A stretch of 33,968 nucleotides of DNA from Rhodococcus oryzae (GTDB lineage Bacteria > Actinomycetota > Actinomycetes > Mycobacteriales > Mycobacteriaceae), in assembly GCF_005049235.1 (NCBI RefSeq), contig NZ_SUMD01000021.1, forward strand, positions 1 through 33,968. Direction: 5' to 3'. Positions 166 through 24,057 of the stretch are shown here, one piece after another. Position numbers and translations under genes: made by a program. How positions within the stretch are numbered: position 1 is the stretch's first letter; every line of letters starts with the position of its first letter. The notes beneath the pieces were generated by a model that did no database searches, was not told the origin of the DNA, and saw only the letters and a list, made by a program, of their open reading frames with translations.

Positions 166-1563
166 ATGCCCACCACCAGCCCGTCGACGTTGAGCGGGGT
201 GAGCCAGTCGCCGTACTGGTTCGACGTGACGTCCGCTCCGGCACCCCTCCCGGCGCTCGATGCAACCATCTCGACCGATCTGCTGGTGGTGGGCGGCGGG
301 TACACCGGCCTGTGGACAGCGCTCCTGGCCAAGGAGGCCGACCCCGATCAGCGTGTGGTGCTGGTCGAGGGCAGCACGGTCGGGCACGCCGCGAGCGGGC
401 GGAACGGTGGCTTCTGCTCTCCGAGCATCACCCATGGGCTCGCAAACGGGGTGCAGCGCTGGCCTTCCGAGGCGGCGACGCTGCATCAGATGGGCCTGGA
501 GAACCTGGCCGGGATCGAGGACACCCTCGAGCGGTACGGGATCGATGCCGACTACAGCCGTCCCGGCAAGGTCAGCTTCGCCCGGACCCCATGGGAACTC
601 GAGGGTCTCCGTAAGTACTCGGAGATGAGCGGGAAGTACGGCGAACAGTCACGGTTCATCCCGACGTCGGAGGTCGGCGAGTGGACGACCTCGCCCGCCT
701 ATCTCGGTGGCCTCTACCTGCCCGACTACTCCCTCGTCGACCCCTACAAGCTGGTCCTCGGCCTGCGCCGAGCATGCCTCGAACTCGGCGTGGAGATCTA
801 CGAGAACACCCCGGTCTCTTCGCTCGACCGCGGTTCCGACGGTGACGTCGCGGCCACCACCCCGATGGGCCGGATCGACGCGGCGAGGGTCGCGTTGGGA
901 ACCAACGCGTTCAAGCCGCTGCTACGACGTCTGTCGACCACCGCGATCCCGGTCTACGACTATGCCCTCGTCACCGAACCGTTGTCGGACAACGACTTCG
1001 AGGCGATCGGCTGGACGCAGGAGTTCGGGCTCACGGACGCCAGCAACCAGTTCCACTATTACCGCAAGACCGCGGACAACCGCATCCTGTGGGGTGGCTA
1101 CGACGCGATCTACCACTACGGATCGCGCCGGGACGCGGAGCTGCTCGACCGGCCGCAGACCTATGCCCGCCTCGCCGAGAACTTCAGTGCCACCTACCCC
1201 CAGCTGTCGCATGTCCGGTTCAGCCATGCGTGGGGTGGGGTCATCGACTCGTCCACGCGCTTCTGCCTCACCTCCGGCAGCGCCTTCGGCGGGCGCGTCG
1301 CCTACGCGATCGGGTTCACCGGCCTCGGTGTCACCGCAACCCGGTTCGGCGCCCAGATCATGCTCGACCGGCTGTCCGGCGAGAAGACGCCCCGAACCGA
1401 ACTGGCGATGACTCGGCGACAGGCGATCCCCTTCCCCCCGGAACCGGTGCGCTACCTCGGCGTGCAGGCGACACGATGGTCCATGGCCCGCGAGGACGAG
1501 CGCGGCACCCGCAACCTATGGCTGAAACTGCTCGACAAGCTCGGCCTGGGATTCGACTCCTGA
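166..1563 (+). CDS. FAD-dependent amine oxidoreductase (DAO family, PuuB-like)
   Basis: A 465-residue flavoprotein of the D-amino-acid-oxidase/glycine-oxidase fold. Residues about 39-50 (LLVVGGGYTGLW) form the GxGxxG dinucleotide-binding loop. About 30 residues on, ASGRNGGFCSPS is the flavin-contact motif typical of gamma-glutamylputrescine oxidase and related amine oxidases. A C-terminal GFTGLGVTATRFGAQIM segment closes the FAD domain. The ATG at 166 has AGAAAGG upstream. The gene is followed after 22 nt by a cupin gene and then an aldehyde dehydrogenase, as in routes where an amine is oxidised to an aldehyde with release of ammonia and hydrogen peroxide. The amine is not determined by the sequence; polyamines or gamma-glutamylated amines are plausible by family. 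No signal peptide is seen, so it should be cytoplasmic. Confidence 0.85.
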   Translation: MPTTSPSTLSGVSQSPYWFDVTSAPAPLPALDATISTDLLVVGGGYTGLWTALLAKEADPDQRVVLVEGSTVGHAASGRNGGFCSPSITHGLANGVQRWPSEAATLHQMGLENLAGIEDTLERYGIDADYSRPGKVSFARTPWELEGLRKYSEMSGKYGEQSRFIPTSEVGEWTTSPAYLGGLYLPDYSLVDPYKLVLGLRRACLELGVEIYENTPVSSLDRGSDGDVAATTPMGRIDAARVALGTNAFKPLLRRLSTTAIPVYDYALVTEPLSDNDFEAIGWTQEFGLTDASNQFHYYRKTADNRILWGGYDAIYHYGSRRDAELLDRPQTYARLAENFSATYPQLSHVRFSHAWGGVIDSSTRFCLTSGSAFGGRVAYAIGFTGLGVTATRFGAQIMLDRLSGEKTPRTELAMTRRQAIPFPPEPVRYLGVQATRWSMAREDERGTRNLWLKLLDKLGLGFDS

Positions 1564-1585
1564 ACCAATCCACAGAAGGCCAACC

Positions 1586-1945
1586 ATGACACCCACAGAT
1601 CTGGGCGCCTGGGCGCTGGAGCAGAGCTTCAACCCCGGTTCGCTGACACTCGATCACACGGCACTGGCGACTGAACTCGTCATCGACGGGACGCCGACCA
1701 CCGCGCACCGGAAGCTGACCACCCTCTCGGACCTCACGATCGGGGTGTGGGAGCACACCCCGGGGACCTCCCGCGATGTGGAGGCCGACGAGGTCTTCGT
1801 CGTTCTCGCCGGTGATGCCACCATCACCTTCGACGACGGCTCTCCCGCGATCGATCTCTACCCCGGAGCGCTGGTCCGGCTGCTGGCCGGACAACGCACC
1901 GTGTGGACCGTCCGCGATACCCTCCGCAAGGTCTACATCACCTGA
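1586..1945 (+). CDS. Small cupin-domain protein
   Basis: A 119-residue single-domain protein preceded by AGAAGG and ATG. The second half carries the beta-barrel signature of the small cupins related to EutQ and DUF861: GVWEHTPGTSRDVEADEVFVVLAGDA, then DLYPGALVRLLAGQRTVW. The usual metal-binding His residues are only partly present (E in ADEVFVV and a lone H in EHTPG). It may bind metal weakly, or act as a stability or dosage partner rather than an enzyme. Cupins of this type often sit beside PuuB-like oxidases and aldehyde dehydrogenases in polyamine or amino-sugar catabolic operons, as here. A specific reaction cannot be assigned. Confidence 0.8.
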   Translation: MTPTDLGAWALEQSFNPGSLTLDHTALATELVIDGTPTTAHRKLTTLSDLTIGVWEHTPGTSRDVEADEVFVVLAGDATITFDDGSPAIDLYPGALVRLLAGQRTVWTVRDTLRKVYIT

Positions 1946-2022
1946 ACCTCGGTGTGACGCCGACGATTTCGAGGATCGAGGTCACCGTCCGCCCGGACCC
2001 ACCACGACGAAAGTTGATCAGG

Positions 2023-3498
2023 ATGCATCAGTACATCGACGGCAGCCGCCGAGACGGCACCTCCGGTCGCACCCAACGCGTGATCGACCCCTCGACCGGC
2101 GAGGAGATCGCCACTGTCGCGCTCGCCAGTGCAGAGGACGTCGACCTGGCCGTCGCAGCGGCACGTCGCGCGTTCGGAGCCTGGTCCCGCACCACACCCG
2201 CGGAACGGTCCGCCCTCCTGCTCCGGACGGCCGAGGTCCTTCGCGAGCGGCAGGACGAACTCGCAGAACTGGAGAGCCGCCAGTGCGGCAAACCGATTCG
2301 TCTCGCCCGCGAGTTCGACGTCCCCGGATCGATCGACAACGTCGAGTTCTTCGCCGGGGCGGCACGCATACTCGAGGGCAAGGCCACCGGCGAGTACTCC
2401 CCCACCCACACCTCGAGCATCCGACGCGAGCCGCTCGGTGTCGTCGGATCGATCGCGCCGTGGAACTACCCGCTGCAGATGGCGGTCTGGAAGATCTTCC
2501 CGGCGATCGCCGCAGGCAACACCGTTGTCCTCAAGCCCGCCGAGATCACGCCCCTGACCGCGCTGGTCCTCGCCGAGGCCCTGACCACCGCGGGCGTTCC
2601 GGACGGCGTTGTCAACATCGTCGTCGGCGATGGCCGGGAGGCGGGCGCGGCGCTGGCTCGGCACACCGATGTCGACATGATCTCGTTCACCGGCTCGACC
2701 GCGGTGGGTCGGTCCGTCATGGAGGCCGCCACCTCCAACGCCAAGCGTGTCCATCTCGAACTGGGCGGCAAGGCCCCCTTCGTGGTCTTCGACGACGCCG
2801 ATCTCGAAGCAGCCGTCCACGGCGCGGTGGCCGGCAGCCTGATCAACGGCGGACAGGACTGCACGGCGGCGACCCGGGCGATCGTCCACGAATCGATCAT
2901 CGACCGGTTCGTCGCCGGTGTCGCCGAGCTGTACGAGTCGGTGACCCTCGGGCCGACCGCGGAGGACGCGACGGACATGGGGCCGCTGAGCTCGTTCGCG
3001 CATCGCGACAAGGTCGCTGCGATGGTCGAGCGTGCGCGCGGCTACGCGACGATCGTCACCGGTGGCCGCGCAGGCGAGGGCAACTTGGCCGCGGGCGCCT
3101 ACTACCACCCGACGCTCGTCGTCGGCGCTGGCACCGACAGCGAGATCTACCGCGACGAGGTATTCGGTCCCGTCCTGACAGTGACGCCGTTCCGCGATGA
3201 CGACGAGGCCATCGCGCTGGCCAACGACACCCCGTACGGGCTGGCCGCGTCGGCATGGACCAACGACCTGCACCGCGGCCTCCGCGCCACCCGGGAGATC
3301 GTGGCCGGCTGTGTCTGGGTCAACGACCACATCCCCATCATCAGCGAGATGCCTCACGGCGGGGTCAAGCAGTCCGGATTCGGGAAGGACATGTCCTCGT
3401 ACTCGTTCGAGGAGTACACCTCGATCAAGCACGTCATGTTCGACCTCTCCCGCGAACCGCGGAAGGATTGGCACCGGACGATCTTCCGGATCGACTAG
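2023..3498 (+). CDS. Aldehyde dehydrogenase (gamma-aminobutyraldehyde/betaine aldehyde type)
   Basis: A full-length NAD(P)-dependent aldehyde dehydrogenase of 491 residues from the ATG at 2023, where MHQYIDG matches normal N-termini of the family. An in-frame TTG at 2014 is an alternative start with GACGAAAG upstream, and a longer frame from 1903 would overlap the cupin gene. The cofactor region APWNYPLQMA...KPAEITP, the FTGSTAVG nucleotide loop, the general base Glu246 in LELGGK and the nucleophile Cys280 in NGGQDCTAATR are all present. The GGQDCTA context resembles gamma-aminobutyraldehyde dehydrogenases (PatD/Prr). Together with the upstream FAD oxidase this supports oxidation of an amine-derived aldehyde to its acid. 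A strong bidirectional terminator follows. The substrate is inferred, not shown. Confidence 0.88.
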   Translation: MHQYIDGSRRDGTSGRTQRVIDPSTGEEIATVALASAEDVDLAVAAARRAFGAWSRTTPAERSALLLRTAEVLRERQDELAELESRQCGKPIRLAREFDVPGSIDNVEFFAGAARILEGKATGEYSPTHTSSIRREPLGVVGSIAPWNYPLQMAVWKIFPAIAAGNTVVLKPAEITPLTALVLAEALTTAGVPDGVVNIVVGDGREAGAALARHTDVDMISFTGSTAVGRSVMEAATSNAKRVHLELGGKAPFVVFDDADLEAAVHGAVAGSLINGGQDCTAATRAIVHESIIDRFVAGVAELYESVTLGPTAEDATDMGPLSSFAHRDKVAAMVERARGYATIVTGGRAGEGNLAAGAYYHPTLVVGAGTDSEIYRDEVFGPVLTVTPFRDDDEAIALANDTPYGLAASAWTNDLHRGLRATREIVAGCVWVNDHIPIISEMPHGGVKQSGFGKDMSSYSFEEYTSIKHVMFDLSREPRKDWHRTIFRID

Positions 3499-3509
3499 TC
3501 ACCTGCACG

Positions 3510-3560
3510 ACGACATCGGCGGGCCTGCACCTCTGTGAGGTGTAGGCCCGCCGATGTCGT
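3510..3560. terminator. Bidirectional intrinsic terminator between aldehyde dehydrogenase and serS
   Basis: A long inverted repeat: arms 3510-3533 and 3537-3560 pair over 24 positions with a single G-T mismatch around a 3-nt loop (TGT). It lies between the converging aldehyde dehydrogenase (stop 3498) and serS (stop 3577), so it can end transcription from both sides. There is no long U tract, as is common in actinobacteria. Confidence 0.85.
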
Positions 3561-3576
3561 TCGCGACCGGGTGGCG

Positions 3577-4833
3577 TCAGGGACGCAGGACGTCCGTGCC
3601 CACGAAAGGCTGCAGCGCGACGGGCACGGTGACGCTGCCGTCGGCCTGCTGATGGTTCTCCAGGATCGCGACGATCCAGCGGGTGGTCGCCAGCGTGCCG
3701 TTGAGGGTCGCGGCGGTCTGCGGCTTGCCGTTCTCGTCCCGGTAGCGGGTGCCGAGCCTGCGGGCCTGGAAGGTCGTGCAGTTCGAGGTCGACGACAGCT
3801 CGCGGTAGGCCTGCTGGGTCGGAACCCATGCCTCGCAGTCGAACTTGCGCGCCGCGGACGAACCGAGGTCGCCGCCCGCGACGTCGATCACCCGGTACGG
3901 CACCTCGATGGCCGCGAGCATCTCGCGCTCCCAGGCGAGCAGCCGCTGATGCTCGGCGTCGGCATCCTCCGGCTTGCAGTAGGTGAACATCTCCACCTTG
4001 TCGAACTGGTGCACGCGGATGATGCCGCGGGTGTCCTTGCCGTGGCTGCCCGCCTCACGGCGGAAGCAGGACGACCAGCCCGCGTACCGCTTCGGCCCCT
4101 CGCTCAGGTCGATGATCTCGCTGGAGTGGTATCCGGCGAGCGGGACCTCGGAGGTGCCGACGAGGTACAGGTCGTCCTGCTCCAGGTGGTACACCTCCTC
4201 GGAGTGCTGGCCGAGGAACCCGGTGCCCTGCATGATCTCCGGCCGCACCAGCACCGGCGGGATCATCAGGGTGAAGCCGTTCGCGGTCGCCTTCTGCGCG
4301 GCCAGCTGTAGCAGGCCGAGCTGCAGCAGCGCGCCGTAGCCGGTCATGAAGTAGAAGCGCGCGCCGGACACCTTGGCGCCGCGCTCCATGTCGATCAGGC
4401 CGAGCGACTCGCTGAGCTCGAGATGATCCTTGGGCTCGAAGTCGAAGGACGGGAGCTCGCCGACGGTGTCGAGGGTGATGAAGTCGTCCTCGCCGCCCGC
4501 CGGTGCACCCTCCTGCACGATGTTCGAGATGGCGCGGGCCGCGGCATCGAGCGCGGCGTCCGCCTCGTGCTGCGCGGCCTCCGCGTCCTTGACCTTCTGA
4601 GCCAGTTCCTTCGACCCGGCGAGCAGCGCGGGCCGCTCCTCCGCGGAGGCCTGCCCGACCTTCTTGCCGAGCGCCTTCTGCTCCGCCCGGAGGTTGTCGC
4701 CGGCCAGCACCGCGGCGCGGCGGGCCTCGTCGGCCGCCAGCAGCGCGTCGACCAGGGCCGGGTCCTCGCCCCTGGTGCGCTGTGACTCGCGGACGACGTC
4801 GGGATTCTCGCGCAGGAACTTGAGGTCAATCAC
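3577..4833 (-). CDS. serS: Seryl-tRNA synthetase
   Basis: Charges tRNA-Ser with serine in the cytoplasm and also supplies Ser-tRNA-Sec where that exists. From the GTG at 4833 the protein is 418 residues and begins [18 protein letters not shown], the standard SerS N-terminus; the upstream in-frame extension to 5070 is basic and non-conserved and is rejected. The N-terminal third is the tRNA-binding coiled-coil arm rich in Ala, Lys and Glu. Class II motif 2 is seen in the stretch with [17 protein letters not shown], and motif 3 in [13 protein letters not shown]. The gene corresponds to Rv3834c in M. tuberculosis and diverges from the septum-formation gene. A TAAGGT hexamer 8 nt before the GTG suggests a leaderless or very short leader. 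Confidence 0.97.
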
Positions 4834-4841
4834 GACCACAA

Positions 4842-4847
4842 ACCTTA
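4842..4847 (-). promoter_or_regulatory. Putative -10 element of serS
   Basis: TAAGGT on the minus strand, 8 nt before the GTG at 4833. This is the spacing expected for a transcript starting at or next to the start codon. No clear -35 is visible. Confidence 0.45.
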
Positions 4848-4925
4848 CTTGGTACGTGGGCACGGCCCTCAACGCGTGCAGGGGAAGGTTCGGCATCGGC
4901 GCGACCAACGGGCATGATGGACGAG

Positions 4926-6047
4926 ATGTCCGACGAACACGCCAACGAACGCGACGCCTCCGGGCGGGGCGACGACGCGCGCCTCGACACCGAGGCGACC
5001 CGCGACTCGGGCACCCCTTCGGCGGACAAGCCCGGACACCATCTGTCGGCGACCATGACCCGGCGCGCACTGGCCGCGATCGCGCTCGGCGCGATCATCG
5101 CCGCCATCGCGACCGCGGTCTTCTCCGGAGGCTTCAAGAGCGAGAACGACCTCAGCACGCACGCCAACACCGGCGGCCCGATGTCGACCGGCGCGGTGTC
5201 GGGCAGCGCGTTCGGCACCGCCCATGCGGGCGACTGTCTGACCTGGACCGAGGACGACGCCAGCGACCTGGAGAAGGTGGACTGCTCTTCAGAGCACCTG
5301 TTCGAGGTCGCCTCCGAGGTGGACCTGAGCAACTTCCCCGGCACCGAGTTCGGCCCCGGATCGAAGTTCCCGGGCGTGCTCCGGTTCTCCCAGCTCCGCG
5401 ACGAGCACTGCACCCCCGCGGTCAACGAGTACCTCGGTGCCAAGTTCGATCCGAACGGCAAGTTCAGCGTCGGCCTGATCAACCCCGGGGTCGCAGGCTG
5501 GGCGGCCGGGGAACGCACGCTGCGCTGCGGTCTGCAGTACTCGGGTACGACCGGCAACCCGCAACCGATCTACGGGACGGTGGCCGGGCAGGACCAGTCG
5601 AAGACCTGGGACGCAGGCACCTGCATCGGCATCAACCAGAACGTCCCCACGGACCCGGTCCCCTGCACGGACCCGCACGCCTTCGAGGTGATCTCGCTGG
5701 TCGACCTCGGCGCCAAGTTCACTGGCGGCTTCCCGGACATCCCGGACCAGGACAAATACCTCGAGGAGACGTGCACGCAGGCGTCGAACGAGTTCCTCGG
5801 CTCGCCGGACGCGCTGCGGAACAAGACCCTCACCCTGTTCTGGGACAACATCGATCTGACCAGCTGGCTGGCGGGCAGCCGGAAGGTCACCTGCTCGGTC
5901 GGCAAGGAGCTCGACACCGGCGGGTTCGCCTCGATCGTCAACTCGGCCAAGGGCGACATCTTGATCAACGGTGCCCCGCCGATTCCGCCGCCGCCGGTTC
6001 CCGAGGGCCGTTCGCTGCCCGTTCCGCTGCCGGGCGCGGGCAATTGA
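4926..6047 (+). CDS. Septum-formation family membrane-anchored protein
   Basis: A bitopic protein of 373 residues from the ATG at 4926; ATGs at 4914 and 4917 are possible, but [10 protein letters not shown] looks like a natural start. A charged cytoplasmic tail precedes one transmembrane helix ([21 protein letters not shown]). Outside the membrane are two copies of a Cys-containing unit: the first starts [20 protein letters not shown] and contains SSEHLFEVA, the second starts [11 protein letters not shown] and contains DPHAFEVIS. This matches the family named Septum formation (Pfam), represented by Rv3835, whose molecular function is unknown. The paired Cys residues suggest disulphides in the cell envelope. 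The tail after the domain is proline-rich ([16 protein letters not shown]). It almost abuts the metallopeptidase gene (1 nt gap), as in mycobacteria. Confidence 0.85.
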
Positions 6048-6048
6048 C

Positions 6049-6399
6049 GTGACCGTGCAGATGACCGAGGCCCGCTTCGAGGAGCTGGTCTCCGAGGCGC
6101 TTGACCTCATCCCGGCCGAACTCGCCCGCGCGATTGACAACGTCGTGGTGCTGGTGGAGGACCGCGATCCCGAGGAACCCGGACTGCTCGGGCTCTATCA
6201 CGGCATCGCGCTGACCGAACGCGACAGCCACTACGGCGGTTCGCTGCCGGACACCATCACCATCTACCGCGAGGCCCTCCTCGACGTCTGCGATTCCGAG
6301 GAACAGGTGATCGAGGAAGTCGCGATCACGGTGATCCATGAGGTCGCGCACTATTTCGGCATCGAGGAAGAGCGCCTGCACCAGCTCGGCTGGGGGTAG
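6049..6399 (+). CDS. Small zincin-type metallopeptidase (Rv3836 family)
   Basis: A short conserved actinobacterial protein with a minimal zinc-protease motif near the C-terminus: HEVAHYFGIEEERLHQLGW, i.e. HExxH plus a downstream Glu/His ligand region. The GTG at 6049 gives 116 residues (VTVQMTEARFEELV...) and aligns with the usual four to five residues before the conserved FEELVSDAL segment. An ATG at 6061 would give 112. It starts 1 nt after the stop of the septum-formation gene, so the two are translationally coupled. Family members are annotated as metallopeptidase or possibly acetylase-like; no substrate is known to me. No signal peptide or membrane segment is seen, so a cytoplasmic role is likely. 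Confidence 0.85.
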   Translation: MTVQMTEARFEELVSEALDLIPAELARAIDNVVVLVEDRDPEEPGLLGLYHGIALTERDSHYGGSLPDTITIYREALLDVCDSEEQVIEEVAITVIHEVAHYFGIEEERLHQLGWG

Positions 6400-6530
6400 C
6401 GGGCGCGGTCGGCGAAATTGGTGGGAACCGGTCGGGCGCGCGCCGCGTCCAACCTCTTGACGACCAATCTCGGTGTCTGCGGATCGCCCCGCGGGCCCCG
6501 CTCCGCCGAGCCCTCAAGGAGGCCGCGACC

Positions 6531-6839
6531 ATGTCAGGCCATGTGTATGTCGCTCCCGAAGCCCTGATCTCCGCCGCGACGCAGCTCGATGCCCTCGCGG
6601 CGCGCCTGGAGGCCACGGTCCGGGTCAACGCGCCTGCGCTGCACCTGGCGCCCGCGGGCACCGAAGAGGTCTCGGTCATGGTCGCCAACTCGTTCAACTC
6701 GGTCGCCGACAGCTTCCTGCCGTCCGCCGCCACCGGCGTCGCCGAGCTGCGGGTCGCCGCCGAAACCCTGCGCAAGCACGCCGCCGAGTACGAGAACCAG
6801 GACCATTCCCTTGGCGCCTCGCTCGCCGCGGGCATGTGA
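6531..6839 (+). CDS. PE-family protein (type VII secretion substrate)
   Basis: A 102-residue, all-helical protein with the PE-domain pattern: VAPEALISAATQLDALAARL, a central loop, then a second helix rich in Ala, Val and Asn. Near the C-terminus residues 87-91 read YENQD, an exact YxxxD/E signal, which in established T7SS work directs PE/PPE and Esx pairs to the secretion machinery. AAGGAGG lies 8 nt before the ATG. It is followed after 32 nt by a PPE-like gene and then an EspG-like gene, so the expected partner is the PPE protein. There is no C-terminal extension after the PE domain, as in the simplest PE proteins. No ESX core genes (eccB-E, mycP, esxA/B) are in this window, so the cognate system is unknown. 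Confidence 0.82.
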   Translation: MSGHVYVAPEALISAATQLDALAARLEATVRVNAPALHLAPAGTEEVSVMVANSFNSVADSFLPSAATGVAELRVAAETLRKHAAEYENQDHSLGASLAAGM

Positions 6840-6871
6840 GCGTCCGACACCGGATCTGAGGAGACACCGAT

Positions 6872-8113
6872 ATGACCATGGGATTCACCGGCGTCGTCTG
6901 GATGCCTCGCGGGGCCACCTGGAACTCGACCGCCCTCAACGCGGGAGTCGGGCCTGTACAGCTGTCCGCGGCGGGCGTCGCCTGGACGAACATCTCGGCC
7001 GGCCTGCTGGACGCGTCCGCGACCATGACCAAGGTGATGGGTGAGCTGCGGGTGGGCTGGGAGGGGCTCGCCTCCGATGCCGCCCTCGCCAAGCTCATCC
7101 CGTTCACCGCCTGGACCGAGGAGTCCACGGCGATGGCGACGACGACGGCGGCCAAGGCGGCCGCCGCGGCCAGCACACACTCGGTGGCCCGGATCACCAT
7201 GCCGAGCCTGCCCGAGATCGCGGCCGTCAAGACCGCGAAGGTGGTGGCGCACACCGTCGGGGGCTCGCTGGCCGGTGCAGGCGCCGCCGCGGAGGCCGCC
7301 GACCGGGCGATGGATCTGCGGGCGGCGCTGGTCATGGAGAGTTACGAGGCCGCCTCGACCGCGGTCTCGGTGCCGCAGAGCTTCACCCCGCCGCCGCCGT
7401 TGGCGACCGGCGCGCAGGCCCCTGGCGCGGGCACGCAGGAGGCGGTGCCCACGAACAAGGACGACATCGACTGGCGGACCAACCCGGCGGGCGCAGCGAT
7501 GGCCGCGGTGATGGCGCAGGCGCAGAACCCGGCCGTGGTCAGCGCCGCCTCGCAGGCCGGCTCGATCGCAGGCGCCGGATTCAGCACCGTCACCTCGACC
7601 GCGACCTCGCTCGCTCCCGCCGCGGTGTCCGCGATCACCGGCGGTGGCTCCGGCCAGTCGTTCGGCGGCTTCGCCGCGAGTCCGACGGCGGGTGCCGGCA
7701 CGGGCGGCCGTTCGGGCTCGGGGTCGGGGTCGGGCGCCACCCGCACCATGACCTCGGCCGGTGGCATGGGCCGCGGCGGCGCGGGCGGCTTCGGCGGCGG
7801 TGGCGCCGGGCGCGCCACGCTGCCCGAGGGTTGGGGACGCGGCGCCGGTGGCGGCCTCGGCGGCGGGGTCACGGGTGTGCCGGGCGCCTCGGAGGTGTTC
7901 GCGTCCGGAACCGCACGCGCGGAGGCGGCCATGGCGGCCGGTCCGCGCGGTGGCCAGCTCGGCGCCCCGATGATGGGCGGCGCGGCAGGCGGCGGGCAGG
8001 ACGACGAGGAACACCACACCCCCGCATACCTGAAGAACTTCGAGCACTTCAGCGACGGCCGCGTCGTCATCCCCGCGGTCCTCGGCGCGGATCCCCAGGA
8101 GTACGAGCGGTGA
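6872..8113 (+). CDS. PPE-like protein with Gly/Ala-rich C-terminal half
   Basis: A 413-residue protein preceded by GAGGAGA and ATG. The N-terminal about 170 residues are helical and PPE-like: WxG at residues 63-65 (VGWEGLASDAA), then a long Ala-rich helix that would pair with the upstream PE protein. The literal Pro-Pro-Glu near the N-terminus is absent (WMPRG occurs instead), as in many non-mycobacterial members. From about residue 170 it becomes low complexity: Pro-rich, then Gly/Ala/Ser-rich repeats (GGMGRGGAGGFGGGGAGRA). A conserved-looking tail closes it, TPAYLKNFEHFSDGRVVIPAV, resembling the PPVIG-type tails of Nocardia/Rhodococcus homologues as I recall them. Its stop overlaps the GTG of the EspG gene. 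Expected fate is export as a PE-PPE heterodimer. Confidence 0.8.
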   Translation: MTMGFTGVVWMPRGATWNSTALNAGVGPVQLSAAGVAWTNISAGLLDASATMTKVMGELRVGWEGLASDAALAKLIPFTAWTEESTAMATTTAAKAAAAASTHSVARITMPSLPEIAAVKTAKVVAHTVGGSLAGAGAAAEAADRAMDLRAALVMESYEAASTAVSVPQSFTPPPPLATGAQAPGAGTQEAVPTNKDDIDWRTNPAGAAMAAVMAQAQNPAVVSAASQAGSIAGAGFSTVTSTATSLAPAAVSAITGGGSGQSFGGFAASPTAGAGTGGRSGSGSGSGATRTMTSAGGMGRGGAGGFGGGGAGRATLPEGWGRGAGGGLGGGVTGVPGASEVFASGTARAEAAMAAGPRGGQLGAPMMGGAAGGGQDDEEHHTPAYLKNFEHFSDGRVVIPAVLGADPQEYER

Positions 8114-8937
8114 TCGACTCGGGCACCCTTTCCGCGCCGTCCCGGTTGGAGTCGGTCACGCTCGGCCTCGACGAGCTGGACCTGCTGGTCAACGTCCTCG
8201 GCATCGACGAGCTGCCGGTGGTGTTGAACGCGACGGCACGGTTCGACTCGGTGGCCGCGAGGGACGCCGCCTTCGACACCGCCCGGGTGTCCCTCGCCGA
8301 GCGCGGGCTCCTCGAGGCGGGCGCGGTGCACCCGGACGTCGCCGAATGGCTGCAGGTGCTGGCTCGTCCGTACTGGGAGGTGGCGCTGCGGTGGTATGTG
8401 CCTTCGGATGGTCGCTCCGCAGGCTCCGCTCCTGCCGAGGAGATCTCCCGGCTCTGCCTCGCCCACGGACCGACCGGATCGGTGCTCGCCCTCCGCGGGC
8501 CCGACTCGTATGTGCTGCAGCGCGCGGAGCATCCCGCCGGGGAACTGATGCTCGACGCGATCGGACGGCAGGCGCCGGTCGACCTCGGAGTGATCAACGC
8601 GCCGACCGAGCAGCTGGTCGCCGCGTTGGCGGACTGCGCCGACGCCAGGTCCACCGCGCGACGGCTTGCCGCGCTCGGAGTCGCCGACCAGGATGTCGTG
8701 ACGGTCTCCGCCGCGCTGGCCTGCTGCCGGGAGCGCGCCGAGATCGTCGCGATCCGGCACGGCGACGGCAAGGTCGAACCGATCGGCGGTCCCGTGACGG
8801 TGTTCGACACCGACAGGGGCCGGATCGTCGGCACCTCGAGCGTCTCGGCCGACGGGGTGGCCTGGTCCACCCTGAGCGCGGGCAGCGATGCGCGGTTCCG
8901 TCAGGCCATCGACGTTCTGGTCGGCGCCGTCAGCTGA
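8110..8937 (+). CDS. espG: EspG-family ESX secretion-associated chaperone
   Basis: A 275-residue cytoplasmic protein starting with GTG at 8110, which overlaps the TGA of the PPE gene by 4 nt and implies translational coupling. The sequence fits the EspG fold: an early LGLDELDLLVNVLGIDELPVVL segment, a central beta-rich part (RPYWEVALRWYV, GSVLALRGPDSYVLQ), and a C-terminal sheet ending in DARFRQAIDVLVGAV. Established role of the family: it binds the tip of a specific PPE protein in a PE-PPE pair, keeps it soluble and delivers it to the ESX channel. Gene order PE-PPE-EspG in one operon makes the neighbour its probable client. No membrane segment or signal peptide is visible. A terminator follows directly. 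Confidence 0.83.
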   Translation: MIDSGTLSAPSRLESVTLGLDELDLLVNVLGIDELPVVLNATARFDSVAARDAAFDTARVSLAERGLLEAGAVHPDVAEWLQVLARPYWEVALRWYVPSDGRSAGSAPAEEISRLCLAHGPTGSVLALRGPDSYVLQRAEHPAGELMLDAIGRQAPVDLGVINAPTEQLVAALADCADARSTARRLAALGVADQDVVTVSAALACCRERAEIVAIRHGDGKVEPIGGPVTVFDTDRGRIVGTSSVSADGVAWSTLSAGSDARFRQAIDVLVGAVS

Positions 8938-8975: not shown

Positions 8976-9010
8976 CGCATGCGCCCCGCCGATTCGGCGG
9001 GGCGCATGCG
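8976..9010. terminator. Bidirectional terminator between espG and FMN reductase gene
   Basis: Perfect 15-bp inverted repeat, arms 8976-8990 and 8996-9010 around GATTC, extendable by one pair. It abuts the stop codon of the minus-strand gene at 9011 and serves two converging operons. Confidence 0.85.
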
Positions 9011-17870: not shown

Positions 17871-18788
17871 TCACCTCCCGTCCGATTCGCCGGACCGTAT
17901 CCGGCGCAACCACTCTGTCGCCTCCTCGTCCGACGGCGGCCGCACCCCGCCGGGGGTCGCGGCAGGCCACGAACCGAGGAAACGCACGTCGTGCTTGCGA
18001 TGCAGGGCCTTGAGCGCCTCGGCCACCGCGGTGTCCTCGAGGTGCCCGATGCAGTCCAGGAAGAACCTGTACGTGCCGAACTCGATACGGGTCGGCCGGG
18101 ATTCGATCCGGGTGAGATCGATTCCGCGGGTGGAGAACTCCGCCATCGCACTCACGAGGGAACCGGGTTCGTTGTTGAGCTGCAGAACCACCGCGGTGCG
18201 GTCAGCGCCGGTGGCCGCGGGAACCGGAGCCGGGCGCGTCACGAGGACGAAACGCGTTCGCGCGCCGTCGAAGTCGGCCACCGAATCGGCGAGAACGCTG
18301 AGCCCCAGTCGTTCACCGGCCAGCGCGGTGGACACAGCGGCATCGGCGATCCCCGCCGCGACATCCTCCGCCGCACCGGCATTGGAGGACGCAGACTGGA
18401 CCACGGCGTCCGGGAGCTTGCGCTCGATCCACATGCGCACCTGCGCGCCCGCGACGGGGTACGCGCGGATGGTGCGCACCTGGTCGAGGGTGGTCCCGGC
18501 GCGACCGAGGATCGTAAAACTCACGTCCAGTTCGGTTTCCGCGACGATCTGTAGCCGCTCGTCGGACGCCAGCGCGTCGAGGGTCGGGGGCACCGGCCCC
18601 TCGACCGAGCTCTCGATCGGGACGACAGCGCCGTCGACGCGACCCTCCCGGACGAGCGCGAGCGCGGCAGGCGGGCTGGGGGCGGACACTCGCTCCACCG
18701 GACCGTCGAAGGCCCCACCCGATTCCATCTGGGCGAGGGCCATCTCGGTGAACGTTCCGGACGGTCCGAAGTAGGCGATACGAGGCAC
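17871..18788 (-). CDS. pheA: Prephenate dehydratase with C-terminal ACT domain
   Basis: A 305-residue monofunctional enzyme converting prephenate to phenylpyruvate in phenylalanine synthesis (cytoplasm). The start is GTG at 18788 (MPRIAYFGPSGTFTEMAL). The catalytic domain shows VPIESSVEG (substrate-binding), the Thr in the conserved TRF motif (GARTRFVLV), and an N-terminal GPSGTFTE. The ACT domain near residues 195-275 shows LNNEPGSLVSAMAEF and LTRIESRPT, the sites for allosteric phenylalanine binding, so feedback inhibition is expected. It corresponds to Rv3838c. A TAACCT hexamer lies 6 nt before the GTG, indicating a leaderless transcript. Confidence 0.95.
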   Translation of the reverse strand: MPRIAYFGPSGTFTEMALAQMESGGAFDGPVERVSAPSPPAALALVREGRVDGAVVPIESSVEGPVPPTLDALASDERLQIVAETELDVSFTILGRAGTTLDQVRTIRAYPVAGAQVRMWIERKLPDAVVQSASSNAGAAEDVAAGIADAAVSTALAGERLGLSVLADSVADFDGARTRFVLVTRPAPVPAATGADRTAVVLQLNNEPGSLVSAMAEFSTRGIDLTRIESRPTRIEFGTYRFFLDCIGHLEDTAVAEALKALHRKHDVRFLGSWPAATPGGVRPPSDEEATEWLRRIRSGESDGR

Positions 18789-22864: not shown

Positions 22865-23410
22865 ATGACCAACTCCCGGCAGCGCAGCGAGTTCCACGAC
22901 CTCCTCAGCGAACAGGTGCGCAACGAGTTCACCGCCTCGCAGCAGTACATCGCGGTCGCGGTGTTCTTCGACGGGTACGACCTCCCGCAGCTGGCGGCGC
23001 GCTTCTACGGGCAGGCCAACGAAGAACGCAACCACGCGATGATGATGATCCAGTACCTCATCGACAACGACCTGGAGGTCGCGATCCCCGGGATCGACGC
23101 CGTGGTCACCGAATTCGACTCGGTGCGCGCGCCCGTCGAGTTGGCGCTCGAGCAGGAGCGGCAGGTCACCGACCAGATCACCAAGCTCGCCCGCACCGCC
23201 CGCGACACCGGCGACTATCTCGGCGAGCAGTTCATGCAGTGGTTCCTCAAGGAGCAGGTCGAGGAGGTCGCCTCCATGACCACCCTGCTCACCATCGTCG
23301 ACCGGGCGGGCGAGAACCTGTTCGCCATCGAGGATTTCGTCGCGCGGGAGATGAAGTCGCCGGTGGCGGCCGATTCAGGCGCTCCGAAACCTGCAGGCGG
23401 CGCCATTTAG
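22865..23410 (+). CDS. bfrB: Ferritin (BfrB-like iron storage protein)
   Basis: A 181-residue non-haem ferritin. Helix A carries VRNEFTASQQYIAVAVFF (Glu21, Tyr28); helix B carries NEERNHAMMMIQY with the ferroxidase ExxH (Glu54, His57). The later helix has GEQFMQWFLKEQVEEVASM, supplying further ferroxidase ligands, and the family's C-terminal tail ends GGAI. It stores ferric iron as a mineral core in a 24-mer and protects from Fenton chemistry. It lies where bfrB (Rv3841) is in M. tuberculosis, after the LCP gene. A second ferritin follows after 98 nt. The two proteins share most residues, and a 72-bp stretch is identical in DNA. Its own upstream region shows no iron box. Confidence 0.93.
   Translation: MTNSRQRSEFHDLLSEQVRNEFTASQQYIAVAVFFDGYDLPQLAARFYGQANEERNHAMMMIQYLIDNDLEVAIPGIDAVVTEFDSVRAPVELALEQERQVTDQITKLARTARDTGDYLGEQFMQWFLKEQVEEVASMTTLLTIVDRAGENLFAIEDFVAREMKSPVAADSGAPKPAGGAI
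23219..23290 (+). repeat. 72-bp block identical to a block in the second ferritin gene
   Basis: Identical base for base to 23869-23940 in the paralogue downstream, spanning GEQFMQWFLKEQVEEVASM and neighbours. Flanking regions differ at many third positions. Confidence 0.9.
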
Positions 23411-23461
23411 GCTCGGCTCAATTAGGTTTCACTCAATTAGGGAATACTCCCCTCAATAAGG
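23407..23461 (+). promoter_or_regulatory. Tandem TTAGG half-site repeats between the ferritin genes (possible IdeR array)
   Basis: TTAGG occurs at 23407-23411, 23422-23426 and 23437-23441, each 15 bp apart, and a variant (CAATAAGG) follows at 23454-23461. Three overlapping 19-bp windows match the iron-box consensus at 12 or 13 of 19 positions. In M. tuberculosis, IdeR activates bfrB from several tandem boxes upstream, so this array may activate the second ferritin. Site quality is moderate. Confidence 0.55.
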
Positions 23462-23471
23462 CTCGACTTGG

Positions 23472-23500
23472 ATGACATGCGGCCTGACCAGCTATATCGT
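23472..23500 (+). promoter_or_regulatory. Promoter of the second ferritin gene
   Basis: ATGACA at 23472-23477, a 17-bp spacer and TATCGT at 23495-23500. The start would be within about 2 nt of the ATG at 23509. Confidence 0.5.
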
Positions 23501-23508
23501 TTCGCCGC

Positions 23509-24057
23509 ATGAGCGATTCCGCAGATACTCAACGGACCAAATTCCATGCGCTCCTGCACGATCAGATTCGCAACGAGTTCAACGCCTCGCATCAGTACAT
23601 CGCTACGGCGGTCTTTTTCGACAACGCGGATCTGCCCCAGCTGGCCAAGCATTTCTATTCGCAGGCCGTCGAGGAACGCAACCACGCGATGATGATCGTC
23701 CAGTACTTCCTGGATCGGGACATGACCGTGGAACTGAGTGGCGTCGACGCGTCGAAGTCCTACTTCGAGAACACCCGCGAACCGATCGCGCTGGCCCTCA
23801 AGCAGGAGCAGGTGGTGACCGAGCAGATCATCCAGCTCGCGAGCACCGCCCGCGAGGAGGGTGATTACCTCGGCGAGCAGTTCATGCAGTGGTTCCTCAA
23901 GGAGCAGGTCGAGGAGGTCGCCTCCATGACCACCCTGCTCGCCATCGCCGATCGGGCAGGCGACAACCTCTTCCACCTCGAGGACTTCGTGGCCCGCGAG
24001 ATGAACAGCGTGGGCGACACCTCGGGTGCGCCGCCCGCCGCGGGCGGGTCGATCTAG
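23509..24057 (+). CDS. Second ferritin paralogue
   Basis: A 182-residue ferritin, the sister of the gene at 22865. It keeps IRNEFNASHQYIATAVFF, EERNHAMMIVQYFLDRD with the ExxH ligand set, and GEQFMQWFLKEQVEEVASM, so ferroxidase activity is expected. The N-terminus MSDSADTQRTKFHALLH differs from the sister, and codon choice outside the shared block has drifted. It has its own leaderless-type promoter with TTAGG repeats upstream, so it may be the more iron-responsive copy (inference). The two chains could form mixed 24-mers or serve different iron states. A terminator follows. Confidence 0.92.
   Translation: MSDSADTQRTKFHALLHDQIRNEFNASHQYIATAVFFDNADLPQLAKHFYSQAVEERNHAMMIVQYFLDRDMTVELSGVDASKSYFENTREPIALALKQEQVVTEQIIQLASTAREEGDYLGEQFMQWFLKEQVEEVASMTTLLAIADRAGDNLFHLEDFVAREMNSVGDTSGAPPAAGGSI
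23869..23940 (+). repeat. 72-bp block identical to a block in the first ferritin gene
   Basis: Second copy of the block at 23219-23290, in the same reading frame and orientation, with mismatches beginning at both edges. Confidence 0.9.

Follow-up and report, generated by a model that had tools for sequence, protein, structure and literature searches.

We analysed a window consisting of one whole contig (C14; NZ_SUMD01000021.1, 33,968 bases) of the 5.37-Mb, 31-contig genome of Rhodococcus oryzae, which carries a PE gene, a PPE gene and an EspG chaperone gene head to tail at positions 6531-8937. PE and PPE are separated by 32 nucleotides (nt), and the PPE and EspG frames overlap by 4 nt in a GTGA junction. 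Together they form a real, conserved and ordinary-looking cassette in an unexpected place, with the following parts.

6531-6839, plus strand: PE gene, ATG start, 102 residues; PF00934 at 58.5 bits (cut-off 22); YENQD at residues 87-91
6872-8113, plus strand: PPE gene, ATG start, 413 residues; PF00823 at 88.6 bits (cut-off 26)
6872-7396, plus strand: N-terminal helical domain of PPE (PF00823); WEG at residues 63-65, MPSLPEIAAVK stretch at 110-120
7646-7999, plus strand: glycine-rich PPE linker, residues 259-376, fast-changing, with low identity and many gaps
8000-8110, plus strand: PPE closing tail, residues 377-413, from alignment A1 and a tail-model search of six genomes
8110-8937, plus strand: EspG chaperone gene, GTG start, 275 residues; PF14011 at 169.7 bits (cut-off 27)
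8976-9010, no strand: perfect inverted repeat of 17 nt with a 1-nt loop, between EspG and a convergent flavin mononucleotide reductase gene; probable terminator

The first-pass annotation, made from the letters of the window, had called a PE protein with YENQD, a PPE-like protein with WxG and an EspG sharing 4 nt with the PPE gene, and profile searches bore out all three calls. The YxxxD/E signal follows the helical hairpin of PE, WxG lies within the helical hairpin of PPE, and the PF00823 match covers profile positions 2-160 of 165. A chance set of open reading frames can be dismissed, because all three proteins scored above curated Pfam cut-offs and each of the six genomes of the genus yielded one PE. 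Thus, the homology test on which the annotation had staked its calls placed the proteins inside the PE, PPE and EspG families; none of the three rose above cut-off in NCBIfam. As had also been remarked, no literal Pro-Pro-Glu is present near the N terminus of PPE, where in the alignment PRGAT occupies the place of SPPEV of PPE4, and the protein is assigned to its family by domain, not by the literal motif. The MPSLPEIAAVK stretch is taken as the putative EspG-binding tip. Sequence relatives of EspG in the PDB are EspG1, EspG3 and EspG5, the PPE profile aligns with PPE4 and PPE15 of the solved trimers 6uuj and 5xfs, and PE gave a weak match only (PE8, E 0.03). The EspG fold predicted from five sequences is of low confidence, with a mean predicted local distance difference test score of 53, yet all 18 PDB matches found by Foldseek at E <= 0.001 were EspG, at template modelling scores of about 0.3-0.45.

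No ESX component was found among the 34 reading frames of the window scanned with Pfam (a few of them spurious; some short frames unscanned). The annotation was therefore right to state that no ESX core gene lies nearby, a true but weak statement because the window is an entire contig. Genome-wide searches for the ESX core, which covered EccB and EccE, returned one match of each, both on contig C1. The cluster there (L011) reads eccE(+), eccB(-), mycP(+), eccD(+), eccC(-, 1333 residues), a 463-residue gene and two WXG100 genes; the 463-residue product, at the Rv3446c place, has no Pfam match and is assigned by place only. This is what we take to be the ESX-4 gene order of M. tuberculosis, plus EccE. 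Judged by gene content and order, the cluster is of the ESX-4 type, so the suggested search for the ESX type of the genome ended with a single EccB, in an ESX-4-type cluster with EccE. A second ESX that would explain the cassette was ruled out by the single EccB, and a minimal ESX-4 without EccE by the EccE gene that adjoins EccB. The cassette stands outside any ESX cluster; the arrangement that marks ESX-1, ESX-2, ESX-3, ESX-5 or ESX-4EVOL, with pe, ppe and espG inside the cluster, was not found for it.

Above cut-off, the genome holds one PE, two PPE and three EspG genes. The second PPE-like gene is paired with an EspG on C23 (L012), downstream of a WXG100-toxin gene. In this locus (G000:C23:281000-297000, 1282-8373), a WXG100-like protein with a C-terminal tuberculosis-necrotizing-toxin-like domain is followed by small genes (one SseB-like) and then by the PPE-like gene, which has the same kind of closing tail and is overlapped by EspG by 4 nt; L012 is a possible second ESX-4 client locus. 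The third EspG stands alone on C10 (L013, about 7800-8570). Because in the sister genome G003 (L188, 4971-7015) a PPE-like/EspG pair comes after a gene that ends like the one upstream of this lone EspG, the latter may be what is left of such a pair. A fourth EspG match, on C28, was set aside as it scored under the cut-off and hit a LysM/lectin protein.

The genes around the cassette provided landmarks by which its site could be recognized in other genomes.

3577-5070, minus strand: serS (seryl-tRNA synthetase), PF00587 and PF02403; start may be further in
4914-6047, plus strand: Septum_form protein gene, PF13845 at 277 bits
5971-6399, plus strand: Zincin_1 metallopeptidase gene, PF06262 at 107.6 bits, directly upstream of PE; start may be further in
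17871-18788, minus strand: pheA (prephenate dehydratase), PF00800 at 143.8 bits, on the far side of the site

PE flanks were fetched from 32 genomes besides that of the window. These sample 25 of the 26 genera with PE, all but g15. We found that in 12 of these 25 genera (g1, g6, g10, g16, g18, g20, g21, g22, g23, g24, g26 and g28) the cassette directly adjoins Zincin_1-Septum_form-serS. In g27 (G031) the distance is 20 kb and in G005, a g1 genome, 37 kb, within one contig in either case. Two further Rhodococcus records (L009 and L010) also carry it at the serS site, as does Nocardia farcinica NCTC 11134, where the 2.66-Mb record concerned was submitted as a plasmid. This 'plasmid 2' record holds serS, pheA and the cassette (L193; NZ_LN868939.1 615251-632018) and looks like part of the chromosome. 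The other 12 genera have PE elsewhere, mostly beside WXG100 genes or an ESX cluster, and their Zincin_1-pheA interval contained no cassette in the 12 stretches readable at both ends (L162, L164, L165, L166, L169, L170, L171, L173, L174, L175, L176 and L178). Two genomes of g22, which is probably Nocardia, G026 and G067, carry both kinds, one at the serS site and one linked to ESX (L097/L098 and L109/L110). At the serS site of G010 (L083; G010:C10, 8991-11057), PE and PPE are present with no EspG beside PPE, and the degenerate PPE tail keeps only its VPPVIGE end. The cassette is thus not a stray, and its parts, their order, the overlap and the export motifs are largely kept across genera.

In the counts that follow, the PEs and PPEs of the serS-site kind take in the two PEs that have moved along their contig (L082, 37 kb; L103, 20 kb). 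YxxxD/E occupies an equivalent position in all 21 PEs of this kind; of the 19 PEs located elsewhere, 11 have YxxxD/E, 4 have F for Y and 4 have neither. WxG is present in 15 of 18 PPEs of the serS-site kind, among which the EspG-tip stretch is largely conserved. The NTGA overlap of PPE and EspG was scored by a script rule in 15 of the 17 serS-site cassettes with EspG, or in 16 once L078 is added on account of its junction letters, which are those of the window; L096 differs, and L111 was left out of the junction list. At other places, 12 of 16 cassettes have a 4-nt overlap, which is absent in both cassettes of genus g29, taken for Mycobacterium.

In a tree of SerRS, Septum_form, Zincin_1 and PheA, a single group of 26 rows contains all 21 carriers (support 93/99, slightly below the starred level). 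The other five rows of this group have an empty site: G006, G016, G035 and G054 are without any PE, and G029 has its PE beside its ESX. Altogether 24 tree rows are labelled 'empty site', a label that means no more than 'not seen' for L163 and L177 (contig ends), L167 and L168 (only Septum_form found) and L172 (pheA not seen). The fewest changes on this landmark tree number six, and the simplest reading would be one arrival in the ancestor of the group, vertical inheritance and five losses, gain and loss being formally inseparable because the root was not inferred. The PPE and EspG trees come from quick searches, and each has 14 open branches. Eighteen same-site PPEs group together in the PPE tree, with a Shimodaira-Hasegawa-like approximate likelihood ratio test support of 86 and relations much like those of the species; three outlying ones (g18, g21 and g24) fall apart from them. 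The EspG tree joins 14 of 17 same-site EspGs with one from an end-cut Rhodococcus record (99, starred). PE, PPE and EspG distances correlate beyond the SerRS background (partial r 0.71-0.83), and the values with or between two neighbour genes are somewhat lower (0.62-0.69), which supports co-inheritance of the three genes. A recent arrival by plasmid was rejected on the landmark tree, the plasmid-record searches and the N. farcinica record.

The annotation had also pointed to a glycine-rich part and a distinct closing segment in PPE, and both were recovered, at about residues 259-376 and as a conserved tail at 377-413. This conserved closing tail of about 30 residues is a new detail. Its residues 377-407 are conserved, unlike the linker, with the consensus D-x-E-H-x-T-P-x-Y-L-K-x-F-E-H-F-x-D-G-R-x-V-I-P-S-V-I-G-A-D. 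Eight tail positions (Y, L, G, R, V, P, V and G) are invariant in 15 rows; alignment A1 leaves out degenerate or cut tails (L083, L096, L097, L100, L103, L104 and L109) and duplicates (L007 and L078). Between the window and G003, the 31 tail codons comprise 17 identical, 8 synonymous and 6 non-synonymous ones, and the linker codons 19 identical, 24 synonymous and 63 non-synonymous ones plus 12 gaps. Linker differences are mostly non-synonymous outside the closest pair. A second short motif, LPEGW (or LPEGV), occurs in the glycine-rich part at 7820-7834 of the window and in 11 of 42 PPE frames, of both kinds.

A model of the tail run over six genomes of the genus matched 14 places at E <= 1, namely the six cassette PPEs, seven C termini of a second PPE-like group (E 3e-9 or better) and one at chance level (E 0.08); the second PPE of the own genome (L012) and those cassette PPEs that are contained in A1 match by construction, L012 being part of A1 as well. 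Four of the seven PPE-like proteins, that on C23 plus three, are followed by EspG with a 4-nt overlap, and the homology search found no EspG adjacent to the other three. Pfam PPE was above cut-off for three of the seven. We also found a P-x-V-I/L-G ending no more than 60 residues from the C terminus in 31 of the 36 uncut PPEs from genera other than g29, including all 18 of the serS-site kind (the count keeps both L007 and L078, which are duplicates, and omits four cut PPEs). The ending is present in neither of the two g29 PPEs, and N. farcinica has it without the P. The tail probably serves as a signal for docking or co-export that would act during or after export, and by analogy it may play a PPE68-like role in the export of another substrate.

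To relate PE to the ESX machinery, we used 301 genomes evenly drawn from the family, with up to 16 PE and 5 EccB candidates scored per genome. PE was matched in 219 of them, representing 26 of 31 genera; 28 of the 219 belong to g29, the genus taken for Mycobacterium by its many PE genes, which leaves 191 in 25 other genera. EccB was found in 289 and EccE in 258 of the 301, and the combined table reproduces these totals and that for PE. PE occurs with exactly one EccB in 133 genomes and with two or more in 82, although double EccB matches in small genomes (e.g. in genus g3) may be one gene in pieces, and exactly one PE accompanies one EccB in 130. Two or more EccB without PE were found in 25 genomes, and neither PE nor EccB in 8. 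Among the 219 PE-bearing genomes, 215 have EccB and likewise 215 have EccE, which is present in 43 of the 82 genomes without PE. In four PE-bearing genomes (G018, G105, G229 and G251) no EccB was matched, where a missed EccB is possible and G229 does have EccE. Thus, PE is nearly always found with ESX while ESX is often found without PE, as a client would show. An order-wide sample gave PE matches in 124 of 397 genomes, and outside the family the scores were only weak (best E about 1e-10); the control of the PE search 'rings' in Escherichia coli.

We consider it probable, from the sequence comparisons, that the cassette is a remote client of ESX-4 with its own EspG chaperone. PE and PPE would pair as a helical bundle, and EspG, made in step with PPE via the 4-nt overlap, would cap the PPE tip in the cytoplasm. 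YxxxD of PE and WxG of PPE would then present the pair to EccC of the sole ESX, the ESX-4-type machine with EccB, EccC, EccD, EccE and MycP. This machine, encoded on the other contig, would export the pair, with the PPE tail acting at a later step. The available text of PMC10597459 describes a mycobacterial precedent, in which export requires EspG5, the chaperone that stabilises a PPE. The first-pass annotation had suggested a minimal cassette, a client with its dedicated chaperone, that is served from a distant ESX system. With one EccB, on another contig, and a conserved cassette, this remains the best-fitting account; the word 'minimal' is not quite right, because the ESX-4 has EccE and the genome contains a further two EspG genes and a further PPE-like gene above cut-off.

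Several observations weigh against this assignment. The N. farcinica PE has HVAED (HxxxD) instead of YxxxD, the remaining three of the 18 serS-site PPEs have M or L for the W of WxG, and the L083 cassette is without EspG next to PPE. Same-site EspGs of g18, g21 and g24 fall outside the others, on long branches, and the neighbour genes also correlate with the cassette, so that the distance test hardly separates the two. The co-occurrence counts are uncorrected for kinship. Neither EccB nor EccE was matched in the PE-bearing genomes G018, G105 and G251, of which G105 is rated 100% complete and has one PE. Conversely, 49 of the 301 genomes have one EccB and no PE, and G006, G016, G035 and G054, inside the cassette group, keep EccB and EccE and have no PE; from these genomes it follows that ESX-4 does not need the cassette.

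The alternative that fares best concerns origin and is compatible with a client of ESX-4: the module may have come to the serS site from a plasmid ESX, earlier than has been proposed. The portion of PMC4791881 on this subject traces espG, pe and ppe back to plasmid ESX, relatives of EspG occur on plasmid records of Nocardia, Mycolicibacterium and Mycobacterium, and several genera have related cassettes beside ESX clusters. Against this, the PPE domain matched one of 72,556 plasmid records, the chromosomal-looking 2.66-Mb one of N. farcinica with serS and pheA around it, and the trees that bear on the order of events are unrooted. We regard a plasmid source as doubtful.

A further possibility is that PE-PPE is part of the ESX-4 export route itself, for example in outer-membrane passage or as an obligatory co-substrate of the two WXG100 proteins. 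The sections available of PMC10597459 and PMC9765416 lend this some appeal: in ESX-5, Esx secretion depends on the PE/PPE of the cluster itself, PPE proteins are located in the outer membrane, and a similar dependence is reported for ESX-1; the 130 genomes with one PE per one EccB fit as well. It is nevertheless unlikely, since in the 49 one-EccB genomes without PE, in-group relatives included, the machine is kept without the pair. Still less probable is a decaying remnant of an ESX-1/3-like cluster that lost its machinery and was kept by chance. Although the cassette does stand alone, and a single gain would entail five losses in the group, its three frames are open, its motifs and gene overlap are conserved across genera, and its site is common to a dozen genera. 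Moreover, tail codons compared with the window are mostly unchanged or synonymous and linker codons are not, which are signs of purifying selection. Lastly, export or cytoplasmic action of these proteins without any ESX, to which G018, G105 and G251 with PE and neither EccB nor EccE found might point, is hardly credible given EccB in 215 of 219 PE-bearing genomes and the conserved export motifs.

The cassette resembles known mycobacterial modules, PE5-PPE4-EspG3 of ESX-3 and PE25-PPE41-EspG5 and PE8-PPE15-EspG5 of ESX-5, which combine the same three families and the YxxxD and WxG motifs. The Rhodococcus cassette differs from them in its single PE, its distance from ESX, a chaperone gene that overlaps PPE, the absence of a literal PPE motif, a different closing tail and a genome with one EccB. 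Outside mycobacteria, the ESX-4EVOL clusters of Nocardia, Tsukamurella and Segniliparus, as presented in the available part of PMC4791881, are ESX-4 relatives with pe, ppe and espG. These genes lie inside the ESX cluster there, whereas the Rhodococcus cassette is alone at the serS site. For the tail, the nearest likeness is ESX-1 PPE68, a PPE with a short conserved acidic/charged C-terminal tail that is needed for EspE secretion, according to the pertinent section of PMC9765416. The Rhodococcus tail adds YLK-FEHF-DGR-VIPSVIG, and the likeness is one of description, with no sequence similarity claimed.

Previous accounts have mostly confined these families to mycobacteria. PE and PPE were not found outside Mycobacterium according to the relevant passage of PMC1660551, and a 2025 review (PMC12209268, as excerpted) calls PE/PPE exclusive to mycobacteria and the ancestral ESX-4 free of pe/ppe. 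In the same part of PMC4791881, pe, ppe and espG enter plasmid ESX after Corynebacterium and Rhodococcus diverged, and three Rhodococcus species are marked with a single ESX type, apparently ESX-4 from its table. The accessible text of PMC11217815 has EspG absent from some ESX-4. In 2013, PMC3670865 reported, in the part consulted, that Nocardia brasiliensis has three PPE genes, and that orthologues of one of them occur in other Nocardia as well as in Rhodococcus and Mycobacterium. Its N. brasiliensis PPE of 394 residues is perhaps of the same lineage as the Rhodococcus PPE, the two being likened by description only. That part lists the PPE genes singly and describes no EspG, shared site or ESX link, and its PE/PPE/PGRS table gives 0 for N. 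farcinica IFM 10152 and 4 for the row 'equi ATCC 33707'. The portion of PMC3388012 consulted does not address a stand-alone cassette, and a term search of PMC7028111 gave no hit. Among the papers listed by the literature searches, judged by title and abstract start, we found no description of a stand-alone PE-PPE-EspG cassette, of the serS site or of the tail, which does not prove absence, as subscription journals were mostly outside the search.

The wide presence of PE-PPE-EspG in bacteria with a single ESX speaks against both the mycobacteria-only claim and a gain after the split from Rhodococcus. The main weight of our results is that they contradict the mycobacteria-only account and give ESX-4 a testable PE-PPE client. 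A non-pathogenic organism with one ESX, one PE and one closely matching PPE plus chaperone would offer a simple setting for studying how EspG hands PE-PPE to EccC, if folded pairs are exported by ESX-4, and which role PPE has at the outer membrane. A bolder proposal, which we advance tentatively and at somewhat less than even confidence, is that ESX-4, regarded as the ESX form that started out with neither PE, PPE nor chaperone, has had in a large group around Rhodococcus and Nocardia a dedicated PE-PPE-EspG client, kept at a housekeeping site for the history of the group, so that PE-PPE-EspG secretion would not have begun with mycobacterial ESX-1/3. The tail (DxEHxTPxYL ... FEHFxDGRxVIPSVIG), which also ends another PPE-like protein of these genomes that is often linked to EspG, would then be a C-terminal address for ESX-4 export or an outer-membrane step.

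Rfam and tRNA scans of the window gave no match. The closest named relative found is Rhodococcus maanshanensis NBRC 100610 (EspG 91%). Elsewhere in the window, two ferritin-like genes lie in tandem at 22865-24057.

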